Source of the DNA: an uncultured Desulfobacteraceae bacterium
GTDB taxonomy: Bacteria; Desulfobacterota; Desulfobacteria; Desulfobacterales; UBA5852
DNA length: 64,000 nucleotides
Direction: 5' to 3'
Assembly: GCA_913060875.1 (NCBI GenBank)
Contig: CAJXSL010000003.1
Coordinates: 149,045 to 213,044, forward strand
How positions within the stretch are numbered: the first letter of the stretch is position 1; the number at the start of each line of letters is the position of its first letter. Position numbers and translations under genes: made by a program. This document shows positions 7,112 to 63,822 of the stretch, in pieces. The notes beneath the pieces are model-generated. The model was not told the origin of the DNA and searched no databases. It was given only the letters and a program-made list of their open reading frames with translations.

Positions 7112-7880
7112 AGACGATAAAATACCCTTTACTTCCCACTTGGAGGAGCTGCGCCGCCGCCTCGTCATCGCTTTTATCGCCATCGCCATTGGATTCGTGG
7201 CCTCCTACGGGTTCAAGGAATACCTGTTCGAAATCCTGGTCCGCCCCCTGAAACTTGTCATGGCGGAGGGGGATACCCTTATTTTCACCAACCTGCCGGA
7301 AGCCTTCTTTACCTACCTGAAAGTCGCATTTTTGACCGGCATCGGTTTGGCCTCACCAGTGATTCTCTATCAATTCTGGATGTTTGTGGCCCCTGGTCTC
7401 TACGACAAAGAAAAACGCCTCCTGTTGCCGATCGTGTTTCTCTCAACGCTCTTTTTTGTCGGGGGCGCCCTGTTCGGCTACTTCATCGTCTTTCCCTACG
7501 GATTCGAATTCTTCCTGGGCTTTGCCACCGAAACCATCCGCCCCATGCCGTCCATGAAGGAATACCTGGCCTTTGCGGCCAAACTTCTCCTCGCTTTCGG
7601 TATTGTCTTTGAACTTCCCCTGGTCATCACCTTTATGGCCAAGCTGGGGCTTGTGACGGTCCCGTTTCTCAAACGAAACCGCAAATATGCGATTCTTCTG
7701 TTTTTCGCCGGATCCGCCATTCTGACCCCCCCCGACGTGGTCACCCAAGTGATGATGGCGCTGCCTCTCATGCTGCTCTACGAAATCAGTATTTTCGGGG
7801 CCCGGATATTCGGCCGCAAACCGCTTGAAACCGGAGACGCCGACGACCCGGAAGCCGGTGAAAGCGCCCAGGCCGAATAA
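7104..7880 (+). CDS. tatC: Sec-independent protein translocase TatC
   Basis: A 258-residue polytopic membrane protein. The cytosolic N-terminal motif TSHLEELRRRL, the FxxL-type PLKLVMAEGDTLIFTNLPEAFFTYLKV loop and about six hydrophobic segments are standard for TatC, the twin-arginine signal receptor. I chose the ATG overlapping the tatA stop because the conserved N-terminus begins there. The C-terminus ends in an acidic tail. Co-transcribed with tatA. Confidence 0.96.
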   Translation: MTEDDKIPFTSHLEELRRRLVIAFIAIAIGFVASYGFKEYLFEILVRPLKLVMAEGDTLIFTNLPEAFFTYLKVAFLTGIGLASPVILYQFWMFVAPGLYDKEKRLLLPIVFLSTLFFVGGALFGYFIVFPYGFEFFLGFATETIRPMPSMKEYLAFAAKLLLAFGIVFELPLVITFMAKLGLVTVPFLKRNRKYAILLFFAGSAILTPPDVVTQVMMALPLMLLYEISIFGARIFGRKPLETGDADDPEAGESAQAE

Positions 7881-7909
7881 ACAGCCGCGCGGCACAGGAA
7901 CACTCGCCC

Positions 7910-9643
7910 ATGACATGCCCAGACGCACCCGACCCTGCGGAGAAATCCTGTTCGGTGACCTATACCCTGCGTCTGGTGGAAACCCAGGCGGCCACAGGCT
8001 TTTTCATGCCGGTTCCCGATGACGAGCCGGATTTCACAGCCGTGCGAACCTACCTGCGGGATCACCCCTACGATGAATTCATGCACCGTTATGCCCTGGA
8101 GCTATTGGGGCGCATACCCCTGGACGACGTTCGCCGGTTGCTGATCTCCGAGGACCAGGAGCCTTGGCTGACGGCCCTGCTGCTGGAAGCGATCCTCACC
8201 CACGCATCTCTGGCGGCCCTGCGGAATCAGCTTGGCCCACAGAAAATTGCCACATACCGGAACGATTCCCCGTTACTCGTCTTGCGCTCTGAAAGTCTGC
8301 CCGACCAGGCCCGTCACCGGCAGTGGGCGGCACACCTCAAAAAAAACCTGCTGCAGCACCAGCCCCTGGCGCAGCTGGCCGGAACCAAACCGCCCCCTCT
8401 GGATGTGAATCCCGCGTCCCAGTTTCGTATTCCCCTAGACAAGGTGCCCACCCCTGCTGGCGACAGCGGCCTGCCAGCTCCGTCTCGGTCCTTCGAGGCG
8501 GTTGTCGCTACCGCCCTGGAAAGGCTGGAGCGCCACGGCATCCTGGCGGAACAGGAGATGCGCCATGAAAGCTCCCTCAGCCCTATTGCCCTCTTGCGCC
8601 GCTGGCACATGCAGATCCATGTCCAGCAGGATCGCCACCAGTACCACTTCCAAGGATTGCAGACCGCCTATGGCAAGGGATTGAGCCTGGAACGCGCCCG
8701 GGCATCCTGCCTGATGGAAATCGTTGAGCGCTGCTCCGCCTTCGCCCGGGTTGAGGACGGTCGGTTGCCGGACACGGCCCGGGAACTGACCCTCCGACGC
8801 GGACGTCTGTCCGAATTGCAACAGAAGGATTGTGCCGTCCTGGATCCCGCGACCCTCGGGCTGGAAGCCCCTTATGAGGACCAGTCGCTGTACTGGGTTA
8901 CAGGCACTCAAGCTGGCGGGCAGGAAATATGGGTTCCTTTTCAGGCCGTCTATCTGTTCGCCAACCTGGATGAAATCTGCCTCTTCAGCGGCCTAGGCTC
9001 CACCGGATTGGCCGCCGGGGGCAGTCTGGATCAGGCCAAATTCCACGCTCTTCTGGAATGCGCCGAGCGGGATGCCGAAGCGGTTCAGCCCTTTGACGCA
9101 AGACGCTGTTTTCGCCTGGCCACGCGGGATACAGCCGTGGATGGCCTGCTGGCCGACTACCGCCGGCGGGGCATCGACGTCGTCTTCCAGGACTGCACAG
9201 GCGGCTTGGGCATCCCCTGTTACAAATGCTTTGTCTACGGTCCCGGACCCGACGAACTTGCCAAGGGCACCAGCGCTCATTTTGCCGGCTGGCAAGCCGC
9301 ACTGGCCGCCCTGACCGAAACGCCCTATCCTTATCCCAACGGTCCGGCCTCGCGTTCCGGCCCCCCGGAGCTGCCCATGCGCTTTCTGGAAGAGCTGCCC
9401 GATTACACTTCCGGCAACCCGACGAGCGATTTGCACCGGCTTGAATCCCTTCTGGCGGCCAATCATATCCAGCCCGTCTACGTGGAATTGACCCGCCGGG
9501 ACCTTGATATTCCCGTGGTGCGGGCATTGATTCCCGGGTTTGAGCTGATGGCCGATTTCGACCGCTTCACCCGAATCAGCCCAAGGCTTTACAGGAATTA
9601 TCGACAACAAAGCGGTGCTCTTACCCCGGACGCGAACGGTTAG
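7910..9643 (+). CDS. YcaO-domain protein with an extra N-terminal region
   Basis: A 577-residue protein. Residues 1-170 form a region I do not recognise, rich in short helices. From about residue 190 it is a YcaO domain: the first ATP/Mg motif SCLMEIVERCSAF (S266, E270, E273, R274), GLGSTGLAAGG, and the second acidic motif FHALLECAERDAEA. YcaO proteins use ATP to activate peptide backbones (azoline formation, thioamidation) or assist RimO-linked methylthiolation. No TfuA partner, precursor peptide or RiPP dehydrogenase is visible. It follows tatC by 29 bp on the same strand. The substrate is unknown. Confidence 0.85.
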   Translation: MTCPDAPDPAEKSCSVTYTLRLVETQAATGFFMPVPDDEPDFTAVRTYLRDHPYDEFMHRYALELLGRIPLDDVRRLLISEDQEPWLTALLLEAILTHASLAALRNQLGPQKIATYRNDSPLLVLRSESLPDQARHRQWAAHLKKNLLQHQPLAQLAGTKPPPLDVNPASQFRIPLDKVPTPAGDSGLPAPSRSFEAVVATALERLERHGILAEQEMRHESSLSPIALLRRWHMQIHVQQDRHQYHFQGLQTAYGKGLSLERARASCLMEIVERCSAFARVEDGRLPDTARELTLRRGRLSELQQKDCAVLDPATLGLEAPYEDQSLYWVTGTQAGGQEIWVPFQAVYLFANLDEICLFSGLGSTGLAAGGSLDQAKFHALLECAERDAEAVQPFDARRCFRLATRDTAVDGLLADYRRRGIDVVFQDCTGGLGIPCYKCFVYGPGPDELAKGTSAHFAGWQAALAALTETPYPYPNGPASRSGPPELPMRFLEELPDYTSGNPTSDLHRLESLLAANHIQPVYVELTRRDLDIPVVRALIPGFELMADFDRFTRISPRLYRNYRQQSGALTPDANG

Positions 9644-9782
9644 CCGCTTTCCTGCCCGTGGCCTACGCCATGTCCTGCGATCCGCCCGGCAGCCTTGCCA
9701 AAAAAATTTGCTTTGCCTTTTTGGACCCTGTGTCATAGCCTGACAAGTCGATCATCCGATCCACTAGGGGAGCGCCCTCTTC

Positions 9783-11510
9783 ATGAAACACCCGATTATC
9801 GATGACCGTTTTATCATCCTCAAGGACCATCTGGAACGGTTTCTCAAGGATCTGCATGCCTATACCCACGATCTGGGCAGCCCGAACCTGCCGTCCATCG
9901 TCAGTGAGCTTCGCTCCGGGCTGAACGAACCCTTTCTTTTTGTGGTGGTAGGAGAGGTCAAATCCGGGAAAAGCAGTTTTATCAACGCGCTTCTCGGGGA
10001 AAATATCTGCCCGGTGGACGCGGCTCCCTGTACGGATGTCATCCAGGAGATCGTCCATTCGGAAACCCCTTACGAGGATGCGATACGGCCATTTCTGAAA
10101 AAGGTTGGACGACCTTTGGAGATCCTCAAAACCATTGCCATTGTCGACACCCCCGGCACCAACACGGTCATTGAAAACCATCAGGAGATCACCCGCAACT
10201 TTATCCCCAATAGCGATCTCGTCTTGATGGTCTTCCAGGCAAAAAACCCCTATACCCAGTCCGCCTGGGATTTGCTGGACTACATCCGGGAAGACTGGCG
10301 CAAACGCACCGTCTTCATCCTTCAGCAGGCGGACCTGGCCCGTCCCGATGAAATCGAAACCAACATGACCCGGGTCCGGGAGCTGGCCATCCAAAAAGGC
10401 ATCGAACAGCCCCGCATTTTTGCCACCTCCGCGGAACGCGAGCTTCAGCAACAACCCGACAGCGGCTTTGACCAGGTGCGCCGCTTCATCCGGCAGACAG
10501 TCACCGGAGGGCGCCACTACCACCTCAAGCTGTCCTCCATTCTCGAAAGCGCCTCCCAGGTACTGGAACAGGTGGATCTGGCTTTGGCCCAGCGCCGGGA
10601 GCAATTCCAGTCCGACGAGGCCGTTGTGGCCACTATTCGCACGCGCCTGGAGAGCGGTCATCAGCAATCAGCTTATGAACTGCGCACCCTGATTCAGCGC
10701 CTGACGGAAGCCTACGATGCCGCTGCCCACCAGGCCACCGACCGGTTCAGCCAGGGACTGGCCATCGGCAAGTTGTTTGGAAAATCCATCCGCTCCACGC
10801 TGGGACGCAAAACATCGATCAAAAACTGGCTGACAGGTATCCAAAACGACTTCGAAAAGGCGCTCCAAGCCAAAATCGACGCACTGGCCGAAGAGGGGGC
10901 CGACCATTTTCTCGAGGGATTGCATCAACTCCTTAGGTATCTGCTGGATGAACTGGATGAGGTAGAAGGGCATCGGCTGAAGGGTGACGACCTGCTCCTC
11001 AGGATCGACCGACGGCGTATGGACGTCATTGCCACGGTACGGGCCAAAATGGCCGAATCCGTCATGGAAGAGCACTTTGCCACCGATGTGGTCAAAGATT
11101 CGGACAACATGGCCCCGTCCCTGGTAGGGGGCAGTGCCCTGACCGCCCTGGGCGCCTTTCTGCTGACCGTCACCCACGGACTATTTTTTGACATCACCGG
11201 GGGGCTCTTAACCGGTGTCGGTCTCTTTTTGGCCGGCGGGGTGCTGTTTGTCCGCAAGGGCCGTTTGATCCAGCAGTTCCAGGAAAGCCTGGCCGAAGGG
11301 AAAGCCCGATTCGAAGCCGAACTGACTGACCGCCTGTCCCAGCGGTTGAGTCTGATCTATGACGACATTGACCGCAATTTTTTGCCGCTCTACGAATATG
11401 TGGACCAGGAAAAAAATCGTATTGCGCCGTTGTTGGCACAGCTGGACGACTTCCGCGCCCAGCATCAAACCATCGCCACCAAGGTCGGCACGGAACTCAA
11501 AATCAACTGA
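9783..11510 (+). CDS. Dynamin-family GTPase with a membrane hairpin
   Basis: A 575-residue large GTPase. G1 is GEVKSGKSS (residues 57-65), the G2 threonine is in APCTDVIQEI, G3 is DTPG (122-125), and the G4 position reads ILQQADL rather than the usual T/NKxD. A long helical middle region follows, then two adjacent hydrophobic segments (GSALTALGAFLLTVTHGLFF and GLLTGVGLFLAGGVLFV) and a coiled-coil tail. This layout is typical of bacterial dynamin-like proteins that bind or remodel membranes. It stands alone, 139 bp after the YcaO gene. The physiological role is unknown. Confidence 0.86.
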   Translation: MKHPIIDDRFIILKDHLERFLKDLHAYTHDLGSPNLPSIVSELRSGLNEPFLFVVVGEVKSGKSSFINALLGENICPVDAAPCTDVIQEIVHSETPYEDAIRPFLKKVGRPLEILKTIAIVDTPGTNTVIENHQEITRNFIPNSDLVLMVFQAKNPYTQSAWDLLDYIREDWRKRTVFILQQADLARPDEIETNMTRVRELAIQKGIEQPRIFATSAERELQQQPDSGFDQVRRFIRQTVTGGRHYHLKLSSILESASQVLEQVDLALAQRREQFQSDEAVVATIRTRLESGHQQSAYELRTLIQRLTEAYDAAAHQATDRFSQGLAIGKLFGKSIRSTLGRKTSIKNWLTGIQNDFEKALQAKIDALAEEGADHFLEGLHQLLRYLLDELDEVEGHRLKGDDLLLRIDRRRMDVIATVRAKMAESVMEEHFATDVVKDSDNMAPSLVGGSALTALGAFLLTVTHGLFFDITGGLLTGVGLFLAGGVLFVRKGRLIQQFQESLAEGKARFEAELTDRLSQRLSLIYDDIDRNFLPLYEYVDQEKNRIAPLLAQLDDFRAQHQTIATKVGTELKIN

Positions 11511-51263: not shown

Positions 51264-53162
51264 TTAGGCCACTTCTTCAAACTCGGCGTCCACCACATCG
51301 TCCTTTGAGGCGCCTCCGGTCGCGCTCTGCCCCGGCGCCGCCGAACCGGCCGGGCCCTGACCCTGGGCGTAGACCGTCGACGCCACCTGCTGGGCCATAC
51401 GCTTGAGATCCTCGCTCAACCGGCGGATTTCGGCCACGTCTTCCCCCTGCATGGCGGTTTTGAGCGCCTCGACGGCGCTGGCGGCCTGGGTCCGGGAGGC
51501 CTCGTCCAGGCCTTCCCCCAAATCCGCCAGGGTTTTTTCGGTGGTATAGACCAGGGCGTCCGCTTCGTTGCGGGCCTCCACCAACCCCTTTTTGCGGCGG
51601 TCGGTATCCGCGTTCATTTCCGCTTCACGAACCAACCGATCGATTTCCGCCTTGTCCAGTCCGCTGGAAGCGGTAATCCGGATGGACTGTTCCTTGCCGG
51701 TGGCCTGGTCCTTGGCCGCAACACTCACGATACCGTTGGCATCGATATCAAAGGTCACCTCGATCTGGGGCAGGCCTCTGGGTGCCGGTGCAATGCCCGT
51801 CAGTTCGAAGCGCCCCAGCGTCTTGTTGTCCGCTGCCATTTCCCGTTCGCCCTGGAGGACATGAACCGTGACAGCCGGTTGATTGTCCTCGGCCGTGGAA
51901 AACACCTGGCTCTGGCGGGCCGGGATGGTGGTGTTGCGTTCGATCAGACGGGTCATCACGCCGCCCAGGGTCTCGATGCCCAGTGACAGCGGCGTCACGT
52001 CCAGCAGCAGCACGTCCTTTATGTCGCCTGTCAGCACCGCACCCTGAATGGCGGCCCCCATGGCAACAACTTCATCCGGATTGACACTTTTACCCGGTTC
52101 CCGGCCGAAAATCGCCTGCACCTTGGCCTGAACCGCCGGCATGCGGGTCATGCCCCCCACCAGCACCACATCACTGATGTCGGCGGGATTCAATCCGGCA
52201 TCCTGCATGGCCTGGCGGCAGGGGCCCTCCAATTTATCCAGCAAGTCTGCCACCAGGGCCTCCAGTTTGGCCCGTGAAACGCTGATGTTCATATGCTTGG
52301 GCCCGCTGCCATCCGCTGTGATAAAGGGCAGGTTGATCTCGGTCGTTGTCGACGTGGACAACTCCATTTTAGCCTTCTCAGCGGCTTCCTTGAGGCGCTG
52401 GAGGGCCATTTTGTCGGTCCGCACATCGATGCCCTGCTCTTTGCGGAAGGTGTCGGCCAGATAGTCGATCAACCGCAGGTCAAAATCTTCACCGCCGAGG
52501 TGCGTGTCGCCGTTGGTGGCTTTGACCTCGAAAACACCGTCGCCGATTTCGAGAATGGAAATATCAAAGGTACCGCCGCCGAGATCGAACACGGCGATTT
52601 TCTGATCTTTTTTACCCTCCAACCCGTAGGCCAGGGATGCGGCCGTGGGTTCGTTGATGATGCGCAATACATTGAGTCCGGCAATTTTGCCCGCATCCTT
52701 GGTGGCCTGACGCTGGCTGTCATCAAAATAAGCCGGCACCGTAATCACGGCATCGGTCACTTTCTCCCCGAGATAATCCTCGGCCGCCTTGCGAATGGCG
52801 CCAAGTATAAAAGAGGATATTTCCGCCGGGCTGTAAGCTTTATTTTTGAGGCGAATGCGGACATCGCCGTTGTCCGCCCCCTCGATTTGGTAAGGCAGCA
52901 CCGGAACGTCCTGCTGGACCTCGGGTGCCGTGAATTTCCGGCCGATCAACCGCTTGACTCCGAATACCGTGTTTTCCGGATTGGTAACAGCCTGCCGTTT
53001 GGCAATCTGGCCCACCAGCCGCTCACCGCCATCGTTGATCGCGACGATGGATGGCGTGGTGCGGCCGCCCTCGGCATTCGTAATCACCTGAACCTCTTTG
53101 TTTTCCATAATGGCCACACATGAATTGGTGGTTCCTAGATCAATACCGATAACTTTTCCCAT
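51264..53162 (-). CDS. dnaK: Chaperone protein DnaK (Hsp70)
   Basis: A 632-residue Hsp70. The ATPase domain begins [20 protein letters not shown] and has [21 protein letters not shown] and [19 protein letters not shown]. The substrate domain has [16 protein letters not shown]. The C-terminal tail ends in DAEFEEVA, the usual DnaJ/regulator-binding end. The start follows AGGAGG at 5 bp. grpE, dnaJ and hrcA are not adjacent, and I see no CIRCE inverted repeat upstream, so regulation is unknown. Confidence 0.97.
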
Positions 53163-53505
53163 GACGACCTCCTGATTATGTATATTAGAATATATTACTA
53201 AATAAAATTTAAGCACAAAGTAATGATATAATGGTTGTCGTCAAGGGGGTTTTTCATCCATTTTCTGGCGTTCCCCAGGTGCGCCGGCCTGATACCGGCC
53301 ACGGGGGCCTCCCCGACCGCCTTGACCCGCGCTGCCCCCACAGGCCTCTGCGATTCACACCGCCACCCACAGATACACTTGGATCGGTTGGACATTTCAA
53401 ACGAATTGGTTTAGATTTTCTCCGGCAATAGCCCATGATCGGCCGAGCATTACCGGCCTTCGTGTCAAAACCTAAACGGCCAAAGCGCAAGACAGGACGC
53501 ATACC

Positions 53506-54336
53506 ATGACAAACAACGCACTACACGGAAAACGCATCGGGTTTATCGGCGCCGGCAATATGGCCGAAGCCATTATTCGGGGCCTTTTGGAAAGCCGAAC
53601 CGTGCCGGCGGAGCACATCACGGCCTCCGACGTGATCCCGGAACGGCTGGCATTCATGCAAACCACCTATGGGATTGAAACCACCGATGACAACGTGGCC
53701 CTGGTGTCGGCTGCGGACGTCCTGGTCCTGGCCGTCAAACCCCAGGTGGTAAATCAGGCACTGGCCCCCATCCACCCTCATACCGATGGCGCCAAGCTGG
53801 TCATATCCATCGTGGCCGGTTTGACGGTAGCTGCCATGGCAAACGCTCTGGGTTCCGGCACCCGCATCATCCGCACGGTTCCCAATACACCGGTTTTTGT
53901 GGGCGAGGGCATGGTGGCACTGGCTTCGGACGGTCCGGCCACAGGGGAAGACTATGCGATTGCCGAGGCCATCTTCGACCCCGTCGCCCGCATCGTCTCG
54001 ATCGAGGAAAAATTCATGGACGCGGCCATCGGCGTTGCCGGATCCGGTCCTGCCTACGGGTTTCTCATAATCGAAGCCCTTGCGGACGGGGGTGTGAAAA
54101 TGGGGCTGCCGCGACCCGTGGCGCTTGAAATGGCCGCCCAGACCCTTCTTGGCGCGGCCAAAATGTGTCTCGAATCCGGTCGTCACACCGGTCAGTTGAA
54201 AGACATGGTAACGTCCCCGGGGGGCACCACCATCGCCGCCTTGCATAAAATGGAGGCCGCCGGCGTGCGGTCCGCTCTGATGGATGCGGTCGAAGCCGCC
54301 ACGCGCCGGTCGGAAGAACTGGGGCGGAAAAACTGA
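53506..54336 (+). CDS. proC: Pyrroline-5-carboxylate reductase
   Basis: A 276-residue NADPH enzyme that makes proline. The Rossmann motif IGFIGAGNMAEAIIRG is at the N-terminus. IIRTVPNTPVFVGEGMVAL, GVAGSGPAYGFLIIEALADGGVKMGLPR and MVTSPGGTTIAALHKMEAAGVR are ProC signatures. AGGA precedes the ATG. The next gene follows after 31 bp on the same strand. Confidence 0.95.
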   Translation: MTNNALHGKRIGFIGAGNMAEAIIRGLLESRTVPAEHITASDVIPERLAFMQTTYGIETTDDNVALVSAADVLVLAVKPQVVNQALAPIHPHTDGAKLVISIVAGLTVAAMANALGSGTRIIRTVPNTPVFVGEGMVALASDGPATGEDYAIAEAIFDPVARIVSIEEKFMDAAIGVAGSGPAYGFLIIEALADGGVKMGLPRPVALEMAAQTLLGAAKMCLESGRHTGQLKDMVTSPGGTTIAALHKMEAAGVRSALMDAVEAATRRSEELGRKN

Positions 54337-54367
54337 TACCGCCCCACCCGCCTGAGGATATAGTACG

Positions 54368-54838
54368 ATGACCAGTGTACCGCTTATCGTGCAGCGGGAA
54401 ATCGAAGCCAACCTGGCGGTGGCCCTGATCCAGCGCTATGCCGATGCTCTGGGGCAAGCGAAAGCCGTTGCCCTGGCCCGCGAATCCATTCAGAGTCTGG
54501 CGCAAAATGCCGGCCGGAAGCTTGCCGACCAACTTGGGAGCAATACTCTGGAGGACTTGGCAGGGGTGGTGCGGGAGGTATGGGCGCGGGAAGACGCCCT
54601 CGGCATCACTTTTCACACGGTCTCCCGGGATCGGCTTGATTTTGACGTTCATCGCTGCCGCTACGCTGAATTGTATGACCGTCTCGGCATCCGGGATATG
54701 GGAGTCCACCTTTCCTGCTGCCGCGACGCCGCTTTCGCCCGGGGGTTCAATGCCGCCATCCGCATGCAGCGCCGTCAGACCATCATGGAGGGGGCACCAT
54801 GTTGCGATTTTCGGTTTACGCTCGCATCACCCCCCTAA
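54368..54838 (+). CDS. L-2-amino-thiazoline-4-carboxylate hydrolase family protein
   Basis: A 156-residue protein with the conserved C-terminal motif of the ATC-hydrolase family (RRQTIMEGAPCCDFRF) and a paired cysteine in VHLSCCRDAAFARGF. The characterised member opens the thiazoline ring toward cysteine, but many homologues have other or unknown roles. GAGGA precedes the ATG. It lies upstream of a small membrane protein and the original copy of the FrnE-like selenoprotein gene. Confidence 0.8.
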   Translation: MTSVPLIVQREIEANLAVALIQRYADALGQAKAVALARESIQSLAQNAGRKLADQLGSNTLEDLAGVVREVWAREDALGITFHTVSRDRLDFDVHRCRYAELYDRLGIRDMGVHLSCCRDAAFARGFNAAIRMQRRQTIMEGAPCCDFRFTLASPP

Positions 54839-54894
54839 TACCGTTCGTGTAGGCCTGTCGGCAAATTTCCAGGATCAACCAAGGGGGTCTTACC

Positions 54895-55092
54895 ATGAAT
54901 CGCTTTTTTAAAATCATTTTGCACTGCATGGTTTTCGCCATTGGCCTGCCGGCCGTTGGATTCAGCCATTTTTGGGATTGGGAGCTTCTGCGGGGAATGA
55001 TCCTGCCGGTGGTGGCCACCGGATTCCTGATCTACCTGGTGTTGTTCATTCTGCTGGGCGGCTACCGGGCCTTCCAATCATCGTCATCTTAA
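54895..55092 (+). CDS. Small two-helix membrane protein
   Basis: A 65-residue protein with two hydrophobic segments (ILHCMVFAIGLPAVGFSHF and MILPVVATGFLIYLVLFILLGG). A GGGGG lies 6-10 bp before the ATG. Function unknown. It sits between the ATC-hydrolase-family gene and the FrnE-like gene start and may be co-transcribed with both. Confidence 0.6.
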   Translation: MNRFFKIILHCMVFAIGLPAVGFSHFWDWELLRGMILPVVATGFLIYLVLFILLGGYRAFQSSSS

Positions 55093-55102
55093 GGTGGACG
55101 CC

Positions 55103-55192
55103 ATGACGGACCGAAATCGTCTGGAAATCTTCTCGGACTACATCTGACCCTGGAGCTATTTCATTACCGGGCGTATTGATGTAGCTTTATAG
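55103..55192 (+). pseudogene. Truncated 5' stub of the FrnE-like selenoprotein gene
   Basis: An ATG after GGTGG starts MTDRNRLEIFSDYI, followed by an in-frame TGA (55145-55147) and PWSYFITGRID, then leaves the homologous frame and stops at TAG 55190-55192. This is the original chromosomal start of the gene whose body continues at 59797. The second active-site residue is Ser (AGC) where the full copy has Cys (TGC). Even with Sec insertion the product would have only 29 residues, so it is broken by the insertion. Confidence 0.8.
55124..55179. repeat. Left 56-bp direct repeat (att-like)
   Basis: It runs from GAAATCTTCTCGG to GGGCGTATTGA and is repeated at 59741-59796 with one mismatch (A at 55154, T at 59771). 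It covers the TGA codon and the active site of the FrnE-like gene. Both copies have the same orientation. Confidence 0.93.
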
Positions 55193-55617
55193 TGAATTAA
55201 TTACATTAGAAGTTTTTACTATTACACACCGATAGGGGCACTAATGGGGAACTATATTGGGGAACTACGAGCCTTCCTTCCCAAATGGATCGAAAGTTAT
55301 TTATCCCTATTCACCTGGAGTCCAATCGACCAAATCTTGCCCCGCATAACGTCTACCAGCAAATCAAATATCCCCTCTAAACCTTTCCTACCATCGGCCG
55401 ATAAGGTACAAGGTAATCACTTGTATTTTTATCCAGTTCCATAGCCACCAACTCAAAAATACCGAGGGCGCTATGACAGCCAAGCCCCAAAATGCCGTTA
55501 CGCCACTAAATGCCAACCACTTCACCATCATTGATAGGTCCACCGACATTCTACTTATCGCCCCCCATGCTTGTATCCGCCACGGTGAGCACAAGAACGA
55601 CGAAAACACCGGCCCTA
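55193..55617. other. Gene-poor A+T-rich DNA inside the insertion
   Basis: About 425 bp with no credible gene. Its minus strand directly follows the ArdC-like fragment; a frame-shifted open stretch there may be further decay of that gene, but I see no motif. Confidence 0.5.
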
Positions 55618-55851
55618 TTACCGAATTGGTGGCAATGTAAATACCATCAGGGCAAGGGCCTGGGCTGAAAGTTCCGCTACGATTTCCTGAAACGGATCTT
55701 GGCAAGATTTGAGATTATCTTTGATAATGTGATGTGCCGAATGGGCTACTTCGTAGAAAAAGACACATTCCTGCTTGGTAGCGATGGCTATTTCTTTACG
55801 ATCCCAGGAATAGTAGCCGTAATTGCTGTAATTACCTAGAACCGCTTTCAC
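55618..55851 (-). pseudogene. Fragment of an ArdC-like zincin/antirestriction protein
   Basis: A 77-residue fragment. GYYSWDRKEIAIATKQ, the helix FFYEVAHSAHH and DPFQEIVAELSAQAL follow the pattern of ArdC-like zincin metallopeptidases carried by plasmids and integrative elements. The usual HExxH reads YEVAH, so the zinc site is damaged, and a stop lies just upstream of the GTG. The N-terminal DNA-binding part and the C-terminal end are missing. The family call is from motif memory only. Confidence 0.5.
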
Positions 55852-56258
55852 AGAAATGCACCTACATCAAGGCATAGGTAGCCACTCTCACACCCGGAGC
55901 AGATCTTGAAAATCGAGGACTACGATGGGATGGTAGGTGATGAAATGAAGGTAGTCAGTTTCACTATGGGTATTTGAATACCCATTATAGGAACAAGGGT
56001 TGTGAAACTGGTTTCATATTTAGTTATACCTAAAACATTTAGTTGCTCTTTATCCATCTGCAAACATATTAAATTCCGATATTCGATAAGGCAATAGAAT
56101 CACGGCGTATTTTTTGCATATAAGATGCTCCTAATCCTTCCTTGAGCTGCAATGGCTCGCTGCCGGCACAAATAATTATCCATAGGTTTTTGATGGATGC
56201 ATGGCATCGGCATTCACATGTTTCAATTCGACCAACTATCCTACCCAAGGGAGGCCCC
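55852..56258. other. Intergenic region upstream of the caspase-like gene
   Basis: About 407 bp, A+T-rich, with no gene that I recognise. It contains the perfect inverted repeat at 55966-55985 and the ribosome-binding site (AAGGGAGG) of the following gene. Confidence 0.5.
55966..55985. repeat. Perfect inverted repeat upstream of the caspase-like gene
   Basis: ATGGGTATT-TG-AATACCCAT, 9-bp arms with a 2-bp centre, about 275 bp before the caspase-like start. The compact symmetrical form suggests a protein-binding operator rather than a terminator. Confidence 0.5.
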
Positions 56259-57776
56259 ATGTCTAAGCGGCTATTCTTATGCGTTTTGATCTTGTTATTT
56301 GGGTTTTTATCGAATTCATATGGAGTGCCACAATACTATACTTTTGAAGGATCCGTTCATTCATTTACTGACGGGAACTTCAATCCCACCGCTATTGACA
56401 GTTCATACTTCAATACGGCTACTGGGTCAGATTTTGAAGTTAATGATTCACTTTCTTTTACTTTTATGCTCGATGCTGACCGCCCTGGGGAATACACAAC
56501 TCACTACAGTGATGGCCAACCACCACAGACATATCAGTATAGTTCTCCCAACATAGGTTATTCTGAATACGTAGGTGGCTCGTTGCAACAAAACATGTCA
56601 AATATTTACCATTCGGGTATTAGTCAGCCTTACACCTATCGAGAGAATAATTATTATTTGGAAGGCAGCCCTTATTCAATATTCGGGGGAACATCATACA
56701 ATTCATTTATATTGCAACCTGAAAACGGAGCTTTAAATTTCCAACTCGGGCAATCATTTTCTGGAAAACAAACTGCCATAGATGAAACAGGCACCTACTT
56801 TCGTCTGGATTTAAACTTTGATGTTACTCTTAACAGCATATCCGACACAAATCCTTTTGATGTTCCCCCCGTCGTGAACGAACCGCGAATGTATGGGCTG
56901 TTTATAGGTGTTTATGATACCGCACTAAACAACACAACAAATGAAGAAGTAGACTTTTTTGGTAATCTTGCTATCCAAAATTTATCAGGAACGTTTTCTT
57001 CATTACCAAATACTGCATTCTATGATGTTTTGGCTGGAAACGCCGCTGTAGATGGGCAAGGGTTAAATTATAGTGACATCGAGGGTAAAATAAATGAAAT
57101 ATACGCTATGATGAATCCCGAAGACACTTTAATGCTATATTTTACGTCTCATGGTGAAACCCTGTCCAATGGAGATGAGTTTTTAGATTTAGGAGATTCA
57201 TATTTTACTGATGATAATTTATTCCAAATATTACGCGACAAGGAAGATATCAATAAATGGGTAATAATGGATGCATGCCACAGTGGTGGTTTTTGGGATA
57301 CAGATTTGCTTGATTTGGGGGAAAATGAAGGAGGGCTGGAAGAACTTTCAAAAATTGGATTTATAGCATCTGCTACGGATAGCTCCGCTTCCTATTTTAA
57401 CGCCGATGGGTATCCATTCTTGTATGCTGCCCTTGAGTGGGCCTTCTGGGAACAAAGTAACGGCTATTTAATGGGAGACATGAATAACGATGGTACTCTT
57501 GAGTTTGAAGAATTAACTGAATTTGTCGCCTATTTTAAGACTTCAATAGCCCCCGATTGGGAGAACCAGATAGTCTATGAAATGGGCTTTGGAGATAGTA
57601 TCATTTATAGTTCAGAAATCTGGGAGCCGTTTTTTGCTCAGACAGATGATTTGGGCGGATATATAGCTTACAACTCAAATTCTGCTGCCCCAGTCCCAGA
57701 GCCATCCACCATTGTGCTTATGAGCTTGGGTCTTGTAGGTCTGGCAGGACTCGGCCGCAAGAAATTTAAAAAATAG
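56259..57776 (+). CDS. Secreted caspase-like (C14) protein with PEP-CTERM anchor
   Basis: A 505-residue exported protein. The signal peptide (LFLCVLILLFGFLSNSYG) is followed by a beta-rich, Tyr/Asn/Ser-rich domain (~25-205). A caspase-type peptidase domain begins RMYGLFIGVYD, with the catalytic His298 in LYFTSHGE and Cys340 in VIMDACHSGGF. An EF-hand/dockerin-like DMNNDGTLEFEE (407-418) lies near its end. The C-terminus is a PEP-CTERM sorting signal (VPEPSTIVLMSLG, then GRKKFKK), processed by exosortase and linked to exopolysaccharide producers. No exosortase is in the window. AAGGGAGG precedes the ATG. It is A+T-rich and within the insertion. Confidence 0.85.
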   Translation: MSKRLFLCVLILLFGFLSNSYGVPQYYTFEGSVHSFTDGNFNPTAIDSSYFNTATGSDFEVNDSLSFTFMLDADRPGEYTTHYSDGQPPQTYQYSSPNIGYSEYVGGSLQQNMSNIYHSGISQPYTYRENNYYLEGSPYSIFGGTSYNSFILQPENGALNFQLGQSFSGKQTAIDETGTYFRLDLNFDVTLNSISDTNPFDVPPVVNEPRMYGLFIGVYDTALNNTTNEEVDFFGNLAIQNLSGTFSSLPNTAFYDVLAGNAAVDGQGLNYSDIEGKINEIYAMMNPEDTLMLYFTSHGETLSNGDEFLDLGDSYFTDDNLFQILRDKEDINKWVIMDACHSGGFWDTDLLDLGENEGGLEELSKIGFIASATDSSASYFNADGYPFLYAALEWAFWEQSNGYLMGDMNNDGTLEFEELTEFVAYFKTSIAPDWENQIVYEMGFGDSIIYSSEIWEPFFAQTDDLGGYIAYNSNSAAPVPEPSTIVLMSLGLVGLAGLGRKKFKK

Positions 57777-57806
57777 TCGCCGGCAAAAACAGGCTTCAGG
57801 AGGAAG

Positions 57807-57846
57807 AACCCCGTTACCATTTGATAATGGGGTTTCTTTTTTCATT
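57807..57846 (+). terminator. Terminator after the caspase-like gene
   Basis: An interrupted stem AACCCC-G-TTA / TAA-T-GGGGTT around CCATTTGA, followed by TCTTTTTTC. It lies about 30 bp after the stop. Confidence 0.82.
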
Positions 57847-57964
57847 TTGCAAAATAGAACAAGATTTCGGAATGGGTAAAGCGGGGAGCCCCTCAGCTCT
57901 GTAGGATATTCAAGTTCGATTATGTGGGCACGTGGCTCAAAAATGAGCGGCCGGGGAGGCATAT

Positions 57965-57997
57965 CAAAAAAGGCAGGGCAAAAAGTGACCCTGCCTA
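57965..57997 (-). terminator. Terminator of the second PEP-CTERM gene
   Basis: On the minus strand: AGGCAGGG, a 10-nt loop, CCCTGCCT, then TTTTTGA. It lies about 30 bp after the stop of the gene on that strand. Confidence 0.9.
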
Positions 57998-58024
57998 AAT
58001 TGATATAGAAAACAACCTGACCTG

Positions 58025-58714
58025 CTATTTTTTAAATCTCTTTCTACCAAAACCAGAAAGACCAGCAAGGCCTAACCCCATGAAAACGATGGTAGAGGGT
58101 TCGGGTACGGGGGCTGTTGGAGTTGTTACCTGTGCCCAAAGGTTGGTTACATTTTGCTGTGTTTCAATGGTACTAAATTGGTCAATAATCTCATTGGGGT
58201 TGTCGCCAAAGCCAATCAGCCTGAGAGTATATGCAACATTATTAATTGAAAAAGTTTCGTTGGCGTATGCTGTGGGGAATCCAACAAAATCGTTATTAGC
58301 TGGATTTGTTTCCGGTGAAGCACTGTTTGTAGTCTCATCAAGAGTAAAAGTGAATCCAAGAGTATCATTTAATCCAGATGGATCGCTAAATGATAGATAA
58401 ACAGATAGATCCGCAGACGCTAATGAAGCTCCAGTTACATATGTAGGAAAATTAAAATGAGTGAACTGTCCTAAGGAAAAAGTTTCGCCTATGTCAAATG
58501 TATTGGGAGCATTACCATCAAACCTAAATCCACTTTGATATTGATATACCGGATCACCCCACCGAACTTCATTTGTTCCTATACCATTTACGTTTGTGCC
58601 GCCGACAACACTGGTCCAGGTACCAGTAACAGCATCAACTGTTAAGGCGTTTCCAGTTCCTACCAATCCAAGAATTAAAAAGCACGCAAATGAAATAACT
58701 GTAACTTTTCTCAC
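58025..58714 (-). CDS. PEP-CTERM protein, choice-of-anchor K-like
   Basis: A 229-residue exported protein. The signal peptide (VISFACFLILGLVGTGNA) is followed by a beta-sandwich with GTWTSVVGGTNVNGIGTNEVRWGDP and FDIGETFSLGQFTHFNFP, the pattern of 'choice-of-anchor K' domains. It ends in a PEP-CTERM signal (VPEPSTIVFMGLG, GRKRFKK) almost identical to that of the caspase-like protein. The start is GTG, preceded by GAGGAGG at 5 bp. It is convergent with the caspase-like gene and A+T-rich. The molecular role is unknown. Confidence 0.82.
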   Translation of the reverse strand: MRKVTVISFACFLILGLVGTGNALTVDAVTGTWTSVVGGTNVNGIGTNEVRWGDPVYQYQSGFRFDGNAPNTFDIGETFSLGQFTHFNFPTYVTGASLASADLSVYLSFSDPSGLNDTLGFTFTLDETTNSASPETNPANNDFVGFPTAYANETFSINNVAYTLRLIGFGDNPNEIIDQFSTIETQQNVTNLWAQVTTPTAPVPEPSTIVFMGLGLAGLSGFGRKRFKK

Positions 58715-59509
58715 CTTAGCCTCCTCAAAGATCAATTAGTAGATTCAAAAAAACATGTTATTCTTTACCGCCTGGCTTAATCACCCCCTTTCTATATTTG
58801 TCTTTGACAAACACTATTTTTGTAAATTCCATTCATCATAAGATCTACTAACAGAAGAAATCATGTGTGTTATGACAAGAGAAGGCATGGAGATTTTTAG
58901 TTGAACCAACAATTTTTTAGGATAACAAGCAAGGTTAGTGCCATCTTGGCATAGAAAGGTTTAGAACGAATTTATGACATATTTACCATGAGATATAGCT
59001 CTATTCTGTTAATCCTATCGTATAATTTATATAGACAATCTGGTTAAAATATTTCCCATTAAGAATCTAATTACATACCATTCGCTCCGTATTAACTACC
59101 ATAGACACCCACTCGATCCCACTCACTCTTTCCGAGCCCCCGTAGTCACCGATCAAATTGACCTTCATCATGGCTTTCTACTCTCTTGTTGCTATTGGTT
59201 TCTAAACGCAAAAAGCCCGACCACTTTTCGATGATTTGGCTTCTATTATTCTTGAATATATCGGGTTTTTCGGTGGGTTTACGGGGTGTTTTTAGAGTAT
59301 CTTGACCGGATCTTTAAACCCAATGGTATTATATTTTACAGTCGAATTTGTTCGTTATATCATTCTGTAATTACTACGGTTTTACTCTTTCCAGCGTTTT
59401 GTGACACTTTATAGGGAACAGTGTAATTACAGTGTCAAGGGTCCGGCTCAGCATGAAGATTATCTGCGTCAGGTAATGATGGAAGAATACGTAAGGGTGA
59501 TGGGTTTAG
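58715..59509. other. Gene-free A+T-rich stretch of the insertion
   Basis: About 800 bp with no credible gene on either strand. A short open stretch at about 59369-59532 on the plus strand (containing YREQCNYSVKGPAQHEDYL) runs into a different frame of the recombinase-like tail and may be part of the same decayed gene. Confidence 0.5.
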
Positions 59510-59695
59510 AGCCCATTGTTGGAAACGCATAACCTTCACGATGTTCAACTTGCCACTGCTCACAAGGACCTGTCATCGGTCAGACACTATGCCAAGATTG
59601 ACCTGTCTGCCCGCAGGAACGCACTTGACAAGAAGTTGAAAGTGGGGAACGAAAAAAAATTTTGGGGTACTATTTTTTTCGGAATTTCAGGATGA
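59510..59695 (+). pseudogene. Tyrosine-recombinase-like C-terminal remnant
   Basis: A 61-residue open stretch without a start. SPLLETHNLHDVQLATAHKD, then LSSVRHYAKI and RRNALDKKL resemble the end of phage-type integrases (LLE-x-VQ-x-LGHKDLSST-x-Y, with the nucleophile Tyr). It is preceded by a stop, so it is a remnant. It ends 46 bp before the right direct repeat, where an integrase gene is commonly found relative to an attachment site. Resemblance is short and needs a profile search. Confidence 0.45.
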
Positions 59696-59710
59696 CTGCG
59701 AAGGCAACAG

Positions 59711-60325
59711 ATGACACAACTTATTGAAAATAATACATTAGAAATCTTCTCGGACTACATCTGACCCTGGTGCTATTTCATTACCGGGCGTATTGAAAGA
59801 CTGCAGCAGGCTTACGACATCCATATCCACTGGACGGCGTTTCCCCTTCATCCCGAAACCCCTGATGAGGGCCGGAGTCTCGAAGAGCTGTTTGCCGGCC
59901 AGTTCGTTGACATTCCGGAGATGCTGGCCCATCTCAGCAAAACGGCCGAACAAATGGGGTTACCCTTTGGCGAGCGCCTCATGACCTTCAACAGCCGAAG
60001 GGCCCAGGAGCTGGGCAAATGGGCCGAAACATGCGGCCGGGGGGAAGTGTTTCACCATGCGGTCTTCCATGCCTATTTTGCCGAAGGGCGCAACATTGCC
60101 CAAATTCCGGTTTTGACCCATATCGCCGACGCTGTCGGCCTGGACCCGGACGAGGCCCGGACCGTTCTCCTGGAGCGCTCCTTTCGGGAACCCGTGGACC
60201 GGGACTGGCAGCGCGCCCGCAACCAGGGCATCACGGCCGTCCCGACATTTGTGACCAACGGCCGGCGCCTGGTAGGCGCCCAAACCTACCAGGATCTGAC
60301 CCGCTTGATTGAAGCGGAGGATTGA
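59711..60325 (+). CDS. FrnE/DsbA-family thiol oxidoreductase, probable selenoprotein (Sec18)
   Basis: A 204-residue DsbA-like protein of the FrnE family if the TGA at 59762-59764 is read as selenocysteine. The N-terminus reads LEIFSDYI-U-PWCYFITGRIERL; the family normally has CPWCY at this place. The frame continues to the end (HIHWTAFPLHPETPDEG, GITAVPTFVTNGRRLVGAQT with the usual cis-Pro loop). AAGG lies 6 bp before the ATG. The first nine codons are A+T-rich and come from the insertion; the rest is G+C-rich and chromosomal. A potential SECIS-like hairpin begins 2 nt after the TGA. Reading from a start after TGA would lose the active site. Confidence 0.85.
59741..59796. repeat. Right 56-bp direct repeat (att-like)
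   Basis: It repeats 55124-55179 with one mismatch. It spans codons 11-29 of the intact selenoprotein gene, including the TGA and the Cys codon TGC. Confidence 0.93.
59766..59788 (+). promoter_or_regulatory. Candidate SECIS-like hairpin
   Basis: CCTGGT (59766-59771) can pair with ACCGGG (59783-59788) through one G-U pair, closing an 11-nt loop just downstream of the TGA, in the zone where bacterial SECIS elements occur. The stub copy has A instead of T at the stem's last base and loses one pair. The stem is short, so this is only a candidate. Confidence 0.35.
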
Positions 60326-60393
60326 TGGCCGTCCATCTACCATCCCCCCTGTTTCCGAACCCATCGAAAACAGGGCGTCTGGTTTCTTCCGCA

Positions 60394-63300
60394 CTAGAAG
60401 AGTTTGAGCTGAACCTGCTGGGATTGGCGTCCTTTGGATAAATGGGGCGTCTGGTGTTTTAACAGCTCGCGCTCGATGTCGCCCACAAAGGGGGAAAGAT
60501 CCCGAACCGTCTGGCGGCCGTAGATGCGGCGTTTGCGCGACCATGTCAGGTAGAGTTGGTCCTGCGCACGGGTCAGGGCCACATAGAACAGGCGGCGCTC
60601 CTCATCCAGATCGGAAGGCTCCCGCCCTTGCCGGCGCAGCGGAATCAACCCATCTTCGCAACCCACCACAAAAACCACCGGAAACTCCAGGCCCTTGGCC
60701 GCATGCATGGTCGAGAGCGTGACTTTTTCGGCCCGCTCTTTGATCATGTCCGCATCGCTCTGAAGGGTCAGGTTGGCTAAAAACAGGCTCAGATTACCCT
60801 GGCACGACCGGGCTTGGGCCACCAGGCGCTCCACGGCGTCCCGGATCTGATCGGCATCCGGGTCGTCCTGTCCATCGGCGGGCCCAATGGAAACCAGTTG
60901 GCGAACACCATCTTCCAGAGACAATGACTTAAATCGGTTGATGTGGTGCTCCAAATCCTGCAATGCCTCTTGCAACCGTCGGCGTCGGGAAGGCGCTAGT
61001 TCCGGGAAGGGGGACAACGTTGCCTGGTCCAGGGCCTGATTCAGGGTCAACCCCCGGGATTCCATACCGTCCAGAAAGGCCAATACCGTTTCTTTGTCCA
61101 GCGCGGGTTCCAGAAACGCGGCAATTTGATTCAAATCATAGGCCCCGCCGGTATGGTCCATGATGCGTAAGAGCGCCAGAAAGGCTTCGACACGGGGGTG
61201 CTCATAATAGGTGCGCCGGCTGGCGGCCTGAAAAGGGATACCCGCTTTCATGAAGACGTCCTCCAGGATATCCGCCTGGGCCGCCGTGCGGTAGAGAACG
61301 GCAAAATCGGCAAAGCTGTAATCATGCACCAATGCGGCATCCACCTTACCGGCATCGATGGCCAAAAACCCGGTGCCGCCCACCGCCTTTTCAATGGTTT
61401 GTCCCACGGCCACGGCCTCGGCCTTTTCCGAGGGCAGTTCCACCACGGCCACCTGGGGCGCGCCCTGCAGATGGGAATAGAGCCGGGAGCCCAGCACACC
61501 GATGCCCGATGCCGTATCGGGCCGTTGCCGAATCACCTGCCAGGAGGCCTCAAGTATTGTTTCGGCCGACCGGTAATTGTGGGTGAGATGGATCACCCGG
61601 GTGCTGGGATAGTCTTCCACAAAACGATTGAAAAAGGCGACATCCGAACCCCTGAAACCGTAGATGGCCTGATCCGGATCCCCGATGACGCATAGATTGC
61701 CCGTGGAAGGTGCCAAATTGCGAATCAGCCGGTACTGCCCGAAATTTAAATCCTGATACTCATCCACAAAGATATGGGCAAAACGATCTTGGCAGGTGTC
61801 GCGATAGGTTGAATCCGAAGCCAGCCGGTCCGCCACACTGAAAATCAAATCTTCGAAATCCAGAAGATGCTGCTCTTCCATGATGGCCTGATAGGCCTTA
61901 TAGGCCCGTGCAAACTGACTGGTGGGGGCATCCGGCGCCACGGACTCGGCATAGGTTTCCGGACCCTGTAATTGCTGTTTGGCCGCGACAATGCGCTCCA
62001 GAATATCTCCCGGGGCGAGGTCGACCGCATGCCCCGCGTTTCCCAGGCGACGCAAAATGCGTTTCAGCAAAAACAGACGCTCGCCATCGTCAACGATACG
62101 AAAGGCAATATCCGGCTGCTCATCCCGGATCAGCATCCAGCATAGGGCATGAAACGTTGCGGTCAGAGGCAGGGGAGCCCCTTTGTCCAGCAGATGGGTC
62201 AGTCGGGTCCGCATTTCATCGGCGGCCTTTTCCGTGAACGTCACGGCCAGGATGTTATCCGCCGACTCGCCGCGCTCCTGAATCAAATGGGCGATGCGGT
62301 GGGTCAGGGTGCGGGTTTTGCCGGTTCCCGGTCCGGCCACGATCAACAGGGGACCCTGTTCATGATCGATGGCCGCCTGCTGTTCGGGATTCGACCGGTT
62401 CACATGGTCGGAGGAAGACCGTACCGGAACCGGCATCTTCTCGATGGGGTTTTTAACGCCAGGATCAAGCTCCGGATCCGTGCTGGTTCCGTTCCGCGGG
62501 GTTTTCGGGGATTGTTGCGGAGGACTTGCCATACCCGGGAAAAGACGCCGCTGACCCAACAGGCGGCGCTTTTCACCATCGCTGAAAATGCGAATCCGCC
62601 CATACTCGCCGTCATACCCCGCCTGGATATCCACCTGTCCCGATCGCATGCGGCGAATCGCTTCACCCAGGAGGGGAATACCCGTGGCATCGATTTGCTC
62701 CGGCAAGGCCTCCCGCAAGATATGCAGTTCGTTTCCGATGGATGACAAAACCAGGGCATAGGCCCGCCCCACCGTCTTGGTGGCCGGTCCCACCTGCAAC
62801 ACCTCGGCCAGCATTTCCGGCAGGGGAATCAGGCTCTCAAAGGGCTTCTGCCCTTCGGGGATATCTTCGGGGTTGCGGTCGGCCAGAACATGAATCCGGT
62901 TGGACACCCCGACCGTCAACGGACGTCCACATACCGGACACTTTCCATCCAGAGCCTGGGTTTCTTCAGGGGTCAGTCGGACGCCGCATTTGCGGTGTCC
63001 ATCCAGATGATATTTGCCCTCTTCCGGATAAAATTCAATCGTCCCGCCGAACCCTTCGGAAGCAGGTTCTTCCAGGGCCGACCGTATGGCATCGTAGCCG
63101 GGCTGGCCGTTGAAAATATTGGCCTCGCGGGCCAGTTTGGAAGGCGAGTGGGCATCGGAATTGGAAACCAGGGTCAGCCGATCCAGACCGGATACAAGCC
63201 GGTTCATGGCCGGATCGGAAGACAGACCTGTCTCAGCAGCGAAAATATGCCCGGAAAGGTCGTCAAAACATTCTTCCAGGCTGTCAAACCCCGATTTGGA

Positions 63301-63822
63301 TCCCAACATGGAAAACCAGGGTGTCCAGATATGGGCCGGTATCAGAAAAGCACGCGCATCAGTTTCCAGCAGGATCTCGAGTAAATCACGGGCATCGAGG
63401 CCGAGGATAGGGCGCCCGTCCGATCGAATATTGCCGATGTCGTCCAGACGCCGGTTGAAACGTTCGGCGGCTTCCAGGGTTGGCAGAAAAACCAGATTGT
63501 GGTTTTTGCGGGTTTTGCCATTTTTTTTGTAGATATTACTGATTTCCGACACCAGCATGAAATGCACCGGCCCGTGGCATTGGGTCGGCACCTCCTGCCG
63601 GCAGGCGGCCGCCAGGTCGTCATTCAACCGCAACAAACCGTTTTCCGTCGGCACCAGCTTCGATTTAATTTCTGCAAACCAGCCGGGGTGGGTGGCATCC
63701 CCGGTACCGACGACCGTAATCCCTTTCATCTGAGCGGCGATATAGAGATGCTCCAAATCAAGCTTTTTCGATGTCGCCCGTGAAAAGCGTGAATGCACAT
63801 GCAAATCGGCTAAGAAGGTCAT
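60394..63822 (-). CDS. EndoQ-like PHP nuclease fused to UvrD/Rep helicase
   Basis: A 1,142-residue protein. Residues 1-310 resemble endonuclease Q: a PHP domain (LHVHSRFSR, GTGDATHPGW, IPAHIWTPWFS, VSNSDAHSPSKL) and a zinc site (KCGVRLTPEE with C279, KCPVCGRPL with C295 and C298). EndoQ nicks 5' of uracil, hypoxanthine and other damaged bases. After a linker, residues 480-1142 form a superfamily 1A helicase (Walker A GPGTGKT at 497-503, FVDEYQDLN, GDPDQAIYGFRG, HAAKGLEFPVVFVVG, VALTRAQDQLYL). The fusion suggests nicking at a damaged base followed by strand unwinding. It is convergent with the selenoprotein gene. The last 178 bp of the window hold no gene. Confidence 0.88.
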   Translation of the reverse strand: MTFLADLHVHSRFSRATSKKLDLEHLYIAAQMKGITVVGTGDATHPGWFAEIKSKLVPTENGLLRLNDDLAAACRQEVPTQCHGPVHFMLVSEISNIYKKNGKTRKNHNLVFLPTLEAAERFNRRLDDIGNIRSDGRPILGLDARDLLEILLETDARAFLIPAHIWTPWFSMLGSKSGFDSLEECFDDLSGHIFAAETGLSSDPAMNRLVSGLDRLTLVSNSDAHSPSKLAREANIFNGQPGYDAIRSALEEPASEGFGGTIEFYPEEGKYHLDGHRKCGVRLTPEETQALDGKCPVCGRPLTVGVSNRIHVLADRNPEDIPEGQKPFESLIPLPEMLAEVLQVGPATKTVGRAYALVLSSIGNELHILREALPEQIDATGIPLLGEAIRRMRSGQVDIQAGYDGEYGRIRIFSDGEKRRLLGQRRLFPGMASPPQQSPKTPRNGTSTDPELDPGVKNPIEKMPVPVRSSSDHVNRSNPEQQAAIDHEQGPLLIVAGPGTGKTRTLTHRIAHLIQERGESADNILAVTFTEKAADEMRTRLTHLLDKGAPLPLTATFHALCWMLIRDEQPDIAFRIVDDGERLFLLKRILRRLGNAGHAVDLAPGDILERIVAAKQQLQGPETYAESVAPDAPTSQFARAYKAYQAIMEEQHLLDFEDLIFSVADRLASDSTYRDTCQDRFAHIFVDEYQDLNFGQYRLIRNLAPSTGNLCVIGDPDQAIYGFRGSDVAFFNRFVEDYPSTRVIHLTHNYRSAETILEASWQVIRQRPDTASGIGVLGSRLYSHLQGAPQVAVVELPSEKAEAVAVGQTIEKAVGGTGFLAIDAGKVDAALVHDYSFADFAVLYRTAAQADILEDVFMKAGIPFQAASRRTYYEHPRVEAFLALLRIMDHTGGAYDLNQIAAFLEPALDKETVLAFLDGMESRGLTLNQALDQATLSPFPELAPSRRRRLQEALQDLEHHINRFKSLSLEDGVRQLVSIGPADGQDDPDADQIRDAVERLVAQARSCQGNLSLFLANLTLQSDADMIKERAEKVTLSTMHAAKGLEFPVVFVVGCEDGLIPLRRQGREPSDLDEERRLFYVALTRAQDQLYLTWSRKRRIYGRQTVRDLSPFVGDIERELLKHQTPHLSKGRQSQQVQLKLF

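Follow-up and report, generated by a model that had tools for sequence, protein, structure and literature searches.

A selenoprotein gene interrupted and rebuilt by a probable decayed integrative element, with a probable attachment site in the selenocysteine-codon region

How does a selenoprotein gene come to have two beginnings on one strand, 4.6 kb apart, each with the selenocysteine codon? The question is raised by a 64,000-nucleotide stretch (the window) of contig CAJXSL010000003.1 from an uncultured Desulfobacteraceae bacterium (assembly GCA_913060875.1), in which a DsbA/FrnE-like gene, here called frnE, is cut short by an insert and stands complete on its far side. A reading of the letters alone (the sequence-only reading) had proposed that a 4.6-kb element entered at the selenocysteine codon, TGA, leaving a 56-bp direct repeat and rebuilding the gene. 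All three, repeat, stub and rebuilt gene, are real: their coordinates and frames were confirmed, as was the identity of the two repeat copies at 55 of 56 positions (98%), with 4617 bp from start to start. In the scan for direct repeats, which covered 53000-62000, the second-longest family reached 27 nt at 74%. With up to three mismatches, TTCATTACCGGGCGTATTGA occurs at two places in the window, both of them repeat copies, and 100 shuffles gave none; a search of the entire genome returned the 93-nt right-hand stretch a single time and its first 56 nt one further time, in each case at this locus. The insert is A+T-rich, G+C falling from about 0.62 outside to 0.36-0.47 inside. In the native gene, whose start is kept by a stub of 29 residues, 21 bp precede the left copy of the 56-bp core; on the right, 30 bp precede the core copy, in a gene whose start is different and A+T-rich. 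The sole difference between the copies lies in the second active-site cysteine codon, TGC (Cys) in the right copy and AGC (Ser) in the stub.

The product of the restored gene has a DsbA domain (PF01323, E 2.5e-34) and the active site UPWC, "FrnE-like" being a label given in this analysis. DsbA-like selenoproteins, one form of them with UxxC, are a listed kind in the consulted portions of PMC13188914 and PMC1794560. The genome also has a selenocysteine tRNA (tRNA-Sec, 75.6 bits) and SelB (355.6 bits). A protein search of 58 genomes, the window's own included, found FrnE-like homologues in 27, and 26 loci from this search formed the set for codon conservation (without L027 and L029, in which there is no TGA, and without L028, which is broken); the active-site TGA is in frame in all 26, and Desulfosarcina cetonica has Cys. 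Very probably, the insert belongs to a family of integrative elements and has decayed; the tyrosine integrase of this family would join the attachment site of the element to the frnE DNA that holds the selenocysteine codon and the selenocysteine insertion sequence (SECIS). Insertion and family membership follow from the absence of the insert in relatives, from two more elements at the same site, and from related integrases with matching ends and repeats.

Three genomes of the same genus (G003, G002 and G001) have one uninterrupted frnE with the same neighbours and no insert, and the order CTE54368-tm54895-frnE-PHP/UvrD, after all or part of proC, is kept in each. The fourth congener, G004 (81% complete), has a 35% homologue only, without those neighbours. 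The single uninterrupted gene that had been predicted for relatives was thus found in three of four congeners. Their 5' ends resemble that of the stub and not that of the right copy, most clearly in G003, which makes the left start the native one and shows that the right start arrived with the insert, as the sequence-only reading had it. A further empty site is provided by G273, a member of the same genus as G324, a genome from another family of the order in which a second element was found. The left flank of G273 up to the core and its right flank after the core match G324 nearly base for base, with one difference inside the core. Two arrangements named beforehand as speaking against insertion, a stub and a full gene with no insert between them and an insert interior syntenic in relatives, were seen in none of the relatives examined.

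A search for other elements at the same site, which the sequence-only reading had suggested, yielded the second element in G324 and a partial third in G255. In G324, whose genome is one 7.3-Mb contig, two cores lie 9.5 kb apart on the same strand, the first in a stub and the second in a rebuilt frnE, and the element uses the same codons as the window insert. Its complete integrase of 375 aa (Pfam PF00589, E 9.5e-11; PHROG integrase, E 7e-35) reads toward the right core and ends about 110 bp before it. Ten proteins of this element were scanned with Pfam; PHROGs and PADLOC were applied to ten as well, nine of which had been in the Pfam set, so that part of its open reading frames was covered. 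It also encodes winged-helix-like (weak), HIRAN, Mrr_N and what we take to be ArdC-like proteins, among others; PHROG matches were to an integrase, weakly to anti-restriction and metalloprotease families, and to unknown families. In G255 an integrase 89% identical to that of G324 is followed directly by a rebuilt frnE with the foreign start and first codons seen in the window, and the contig ends inside the element, so that the left end is absent from it. This integrase clade (89-100% identity) was found in two of the 389 genomes of the order, G324 and G255, two species of one genus, and in both at frnE. The window's host belongs to a different family and carries the relic of such an integrase.

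The SECIS motif scan, made across the same 389 genomes, matched 115. Among 122 distinct motif sites, gathered mostly by the motif, two are stubs backed by element sequence, those of the window and G324. Two SECIS copies on different contigs (in G008, G030, G162 and G359) proved to be paralogues or broken copies and not stubs with an element, and the broken or frameshifted frnE genes at L121 (G018), L191 (G166) and L119 (G359) have no element signature. In D. cetonica JCM 12296 (L035), 44 bp of an integrase 3' end (91%) stand just before frnE, whose product begins MTQHVEKNTL, compared with MTQLIENNTL for the element; Cys replaces selenocysteine, and the best SECIS-motif match has 7 mismatches. 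No left end of the element was found within the 20.6 kb examined there. The locus looks like the fossil of an insertion, with the element gone and the new gene start left behind. In this part of L035, about 5617-10642, some 4.4 kb with long frames (RecQ-like and DprA-like) lie between the frnE and an mgsA-like frame; these names, like that of mgsA, were given by eye.

The window insert is evidently a decayed, integrase-deleted copy of a G324-type element, since it keeps an integrase relic and the same terminal repeats. The relic is identical to the integrases of G324 and G255 in 41 of 41 residues and to the G324 gene in 113 of 123 nt, the 10 differences all being silent; the stop codon and the remainder of the gene are gone, and the copy would no longer be able to move by its own integrase. 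At the left, 55124-55289, including the core, is 80% identical to the G324 left end over 167 nt, and at the right the stretch 59531-59796 shares 79-80% identity with the corresponding ends of the G324 and G255 elements, with 59699-59733 being 97% identical to that of G255. Table 1 collects the features of the locus.

Table 1. Features of the interrupted frnE locus, in window coordinates
Feature	Position	Strand	Basis
Small membrane-protein gene, left chromosomal neighbour	54895..55092	+	homologue directly 5' of uninterrupted frnE in G003, G002, G001
Selenoprotein stub with native start (ATG 55103), TGA 55145-55147, stop 55190-55192 inside element	55103..55192	+	sequence, frame; 5' end G003-like
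attL, left 56-bp core copy	55124..55179	+	direct-repeat scan
SECIS hairpin DNA, left copy; shared block ends at its last base	55160..55179	+	
Element left end, homologous to G324 left end	55180..55289	+	alignment
Two TGGGGAACTA repeats, candidate integrase arm sites	55245..55267	+	motif count
Possible remnant of large left-end gene of G324 element (weak)	55350..55640	+	28 aa, 50%, E 0.002 to L112
ArdC-like gene remnant	55618..55866	-	72 aa, 65% identical to L112:9156-9371, E 1e-28
Possible cargo: caspase-like protein with PEP-CTERM sorting signal	56259..57776	+	Pfam Peptidase_C14 E 7.5e-8, PEP-CTERM E 2.7e-6
Possible cargo: THxN-family PEP-CTERM protein with choice-of-anchor K domain	58025..58735	-	NF038125 E 1e-33, NF038131 E 4e-36 on 58025-58714
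Remnant of frame preceding integrase in G255	59441..59516	+	72% over 76 nt to L126:299-374
Tyrosine integrase relic, last 41 codons, stop codon lost	59531..59653	+	comparison with G324, G255
Two degenerate TGGGGAACTA repeats (TGGGGAACGA, TGGGGTACTA), candidate right arm sites	59643..59672	+	
Element-borne start codon and first codons of restored gene	59711..59740	+	unlike congeners' 5' ends
attR, right 56-bp core copy; TGA 59762-59764, SECIS hairpin 59777-59796	59741..59796	+	
Restored DsbA/FrnE-like selenoprotein gene (UPWC), stop 60323-60325	59711..60325	+	Pfam DSBA; relatives with TGA at same codon
PHP/UvrD-like gene (names by eye), right chromosomal neighbour	60394..63822	-	same place in G003, G002, G001

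The ArdC-like fragment of the window has the opposite orientation to that in the G324 element. Its name, as that of the L112 gene it resembles, is presumed; the L112 gene has no Pfam match and weakly matches an anti-restriction PHROG (E 5e-4). The two PEP-CTERM genes may be later cargo, because similar PEP-CTERM genes and upstream DNA are present elsewhere in the same genome, on contig C25 (L123). Separately, 59084-59256 is 76% identical to DNA beside a gene pair at 7341-8624 of L122 (contig C42 of G003), and this pair resembles, by eye, the Mrr_N gene and a gene for a 225-aa protein of the G324 element.

Where within the core the exchange takes place is suggested by the limits of the shared block. 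In both the window and G324 this block ends at the same base, the last of the hairpin TTCATTA-CCGGGCG-TATTGA, 32 nt past the TGA, and 5' of the TGA identity extends for 12 nt in G324 and 21 in the window, which is at least 27 nt 5' of the hairpin. The asymmetry would be explained by a crossover in the hairpin, with the element carrying all of the coding sequence 5' of it and, on the 3' side, only the second arm. Thus, of the claim that insertion occurred at the selenocysteine codon, the part that stands is that the repeat spans the TGA; the crossover itself was likely inside the hairpin and not at the TGA. We infer that strands are exchanged in the 7-bp SECIS loop segment CCGGGCG, between the arms TTCATTA and TATTGAA. 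As DNA, the SECIS is an inverted repeat like a recombinase core, with 7-bp imperfect arms around 7 bp. Selection appears to keep the hairpin, because among the 26 homologues the major-codon share is 0.85 at 7 conserved SECIS positions and 0.53 at 56 other conserved positions; this set was relied on in place of an earlier one of 112 sequences, which had been gathered mostly by the motif itself and was biased. In a set of 100 distinct sequences, likewise chosen mostly by the motif, at least 99 retain each of the six consensus pairs, and two of these pairs show compensatory changes. Rfam gave four sub-threshold matches across 55000-60400, none of them a SECIS.

Arm-type integrase sites typically appear as short repeats near the ends of an element, and TGGGGAACTA has this appearance. 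Allowing one mismatch, it occurs six times in a 19.5-kb stretch of G324, with three copies immediately internal to each core and every copy on the same strand, compared with an average of 1.45 in 20 shuffles; the window has two at each element end and two elsewhere in its 64 kb, and G255 has two at its right end. These repeats are candidate arm-binding sites. The integrase would join the element's attachment site to SECIS-region DNA of the DsbA/FrnE-like gene, severing the native start and leaving it in the left stub, and the element would supply a start, the first codons, the TGA and the 5' part of the SECIS to a full frame at its right end, downstream of the integrase gene. The gene so rebuilt is presumably expressed.

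Is the tie to selenocysteine particular to this clade, or a property of the wider integrase family? Searches for the integrase found 19 of the 389 genomes of the order (E at most 1e-20); the class-wide search added none to these, and the phylum-wide search (395 genomes, E at most 1e-40) added two. Besides the frnE clade, 20 integrase loci and one fragment were examined, the homologues being about 27-38% identical to the G324 integrase. The 3' end of tRNA-Sec (26 nt, up to 2 mismatches), the product of selC, lies downstream of the integrase stop within 150 bp at 8 of the 20 loci and within 1.5 kb at 11; two of these, L134 and L140, come from one genus and are nearly copies of each other. The 26 nt have no occurrence in 1.57 Mb of other loci. 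L135 holds the entire tRNA-Sec gene. Another homologue, at L231 (G596), stands beside tRNA-Pro(cgg), which leaves eight of the 20 with no assigned target, some of them short of sequence. At L228 (G170) two tandem integrase copies, one short, accompany two selC-like 3' ends that have decayed to 4 and 6 mismatches. The integrase tree, rooted at the midpoint, omits the fragment L145 and the short L137, L140 and L141; in it the frnE clade (support 100/100) is a long branch inside a 15-row group with nine selC rows. The selC label is not more clustered on the tree than in shuffles (386 of 500 as low), and the root is a midpoint one, so that selC is at most a plausible ancestral target.

The selC and frnE sites have in common a hairpin with a 7-nt loop segment (the T-loop and, by our own reading, the SECIS loop) and the tie to selenocysteine. 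One may imagine an integrase lineage specialised on hairpin DNA of selenocysteine decoding, the end of the tRNA-Sec T-arm in many members and the SECIS in a derived clade; we regard this tentatively, as a possibility that is on balance improbable. More doubtful again is the further proposal, which would add to the reading favored here, that the wider family chooses selC and SECIS by exploiting the selenocysteine machinery and not merely conserved hairpin DNA. The 11 loci of 20 with a nearby selC end speak for it; but selC 3' ends and frnE cores are no more alike than shuffles (p 0.92 and 0.74 on the two strands), one sister integrase is at tRNA-Pro, and selC is a commonly targeted tRNA gene in general.

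To return to an integrative element with a SECIS-region attachment site, several observations weigh against it or qualify it. For the hairpin, the RNAalifold consensus is weak (-2.8 kcal/mol), and when the right copy is folded by itself its energy minimum is another hairpin. The integrase has the box I R, the K and the later H and Y, and its box II is K-H; the usual motif of tyrosine recombinases is R-H, and the variant is common to many members of the wider clade. At the right end there is one promoter-like site, compared with 0.8 expected by chance, and no terminator, and no relaxase or conjugation genes were recognised among the scanned proteins of the G324 element. That element is the only one known end to end with its integrase, that of G255 being without a left end and that of the window without an integrase. 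Further left ends were sought in 331 genomes and found in the window and G324 only; searches of phage and plasmid collections and of viral contigs, at the sensitivity applied in each, turned up no relative of the element or integrase; and no circle, element attachment site (attP, sought in the 331 genomes and viral contigs) or same-strain empty site was present among the sequences examined. Nine viral contigs with a 16-nt junction match, and five of seven junction-like matches in the 331 genomes, were chance by context. Finally, both core copies in each genome carry variants of the host lineage. One crossover does not account for this by itself, and the pattern suggests either a donor close to the host or later conversion that evened out the copies.

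These host-like cores, and the want of an intact integrase in the window copy, are what might be expected if foreign DNA, circular or linear, with a piece of frnE had crossed within a short homology by homologous recombination and no site-specific recombinase had taken part. We consider such an origin very unlikely, as an integrase is present at this site in two further elements whose ends are related, the window and G324 have terminal repeats and left-end sequence in common, and the limit of their shared block falls on the same base. Two copies of the gene start on one strand could also stem from tandem duplication of the locus with later divergence, or from an artefact of assembly. This is hardly credible, as the interior is unlike the flanks and absent there in three congeners, just 56 bp are common to the copies, and the G324 case sits in a single contig.

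For an integrative element that rebuilds the 5' end of its target, there are precedents. SXT at prfC and islands at dusA restore the target 5' end with a new promoter, according to the consulted part of PMC8409611. The SXT/R391 integrative and conjugative elements (ICEs), as far as the sources consulted describe them, are conjugative and about 100 kb, and their target is a release-factor gene and not a recoding signal. In the dusA-specific islands (IMEVchUSA3) the disrupted 5' end is rebuilt with an altered N terminus and a new promoter, as shown experimentally (PMC8409611, consulted in part). There the target is a gene for tRNA-dihydrouridine synthase and the islands are mobilised by IncC plasmids, whereas no transfer genes were recognised among the proteins scanned from the G324 element. 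The selC elements resemble the frnE clade in that the distant integrase homologues lie upstream of the selC 3' end, with the tRNA end downstream of the integrase stop in 11 of 11; they would rebuild a tRNA 3' end, whereas for the frnE clade the site is a protein gene's SECIS and the part rebuilt is a 5' end. The attB of ICEBs1, in tRNA-Leu, is a 5-bp inverted repeat with a 7-bp spacer in the part of PMC3715440 consulted, for comparison with the 7-bp imperfect arms and 7 bp of the SECIS DNA, whose limits we infer; the host, element and integrase of ICEBs1 differ from those of the frnE family. In the literature as consulted on SECIS, selenocysteine and selenoprotein genes, FrnE, integrases, attachment sites, genomic islands and tRNA-Sec, no attachment site in a SECIS or selenoprotein gene is reported, in keeping with the earlier surmise that such a site was undescribed. 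Rebuilding of the 5' end is thus already known, and within the literature searched the new aspect is the SECIS as attachment site.

With these elements, a translational recoding signal would join the list of attachment sites. Genes for tRNAs are thought to be favored as targets because they are conserved and contain inverted repeats (PMC3715440, in the part consulted), and a SECIS would suit in the same way: selection on the RNA hairpin leaves its DNA almost unchanged from genus to genus, as is seen in tRNA genes, and also yields an inverted repeat of the size of a recombinase core. A gene finder that stops at TGA misreads the stub and the restored gene alike. If the integrase lineage were indeed specialised on selenocysteine-decoding hairpins, such elements would be confined to hosts that decode selenocysteine, and the derived clade would put a host selenoprotein under the element's start and possibly within its integrase transcript. 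The selC link makes a switch of target inside one integrase family directly testable.

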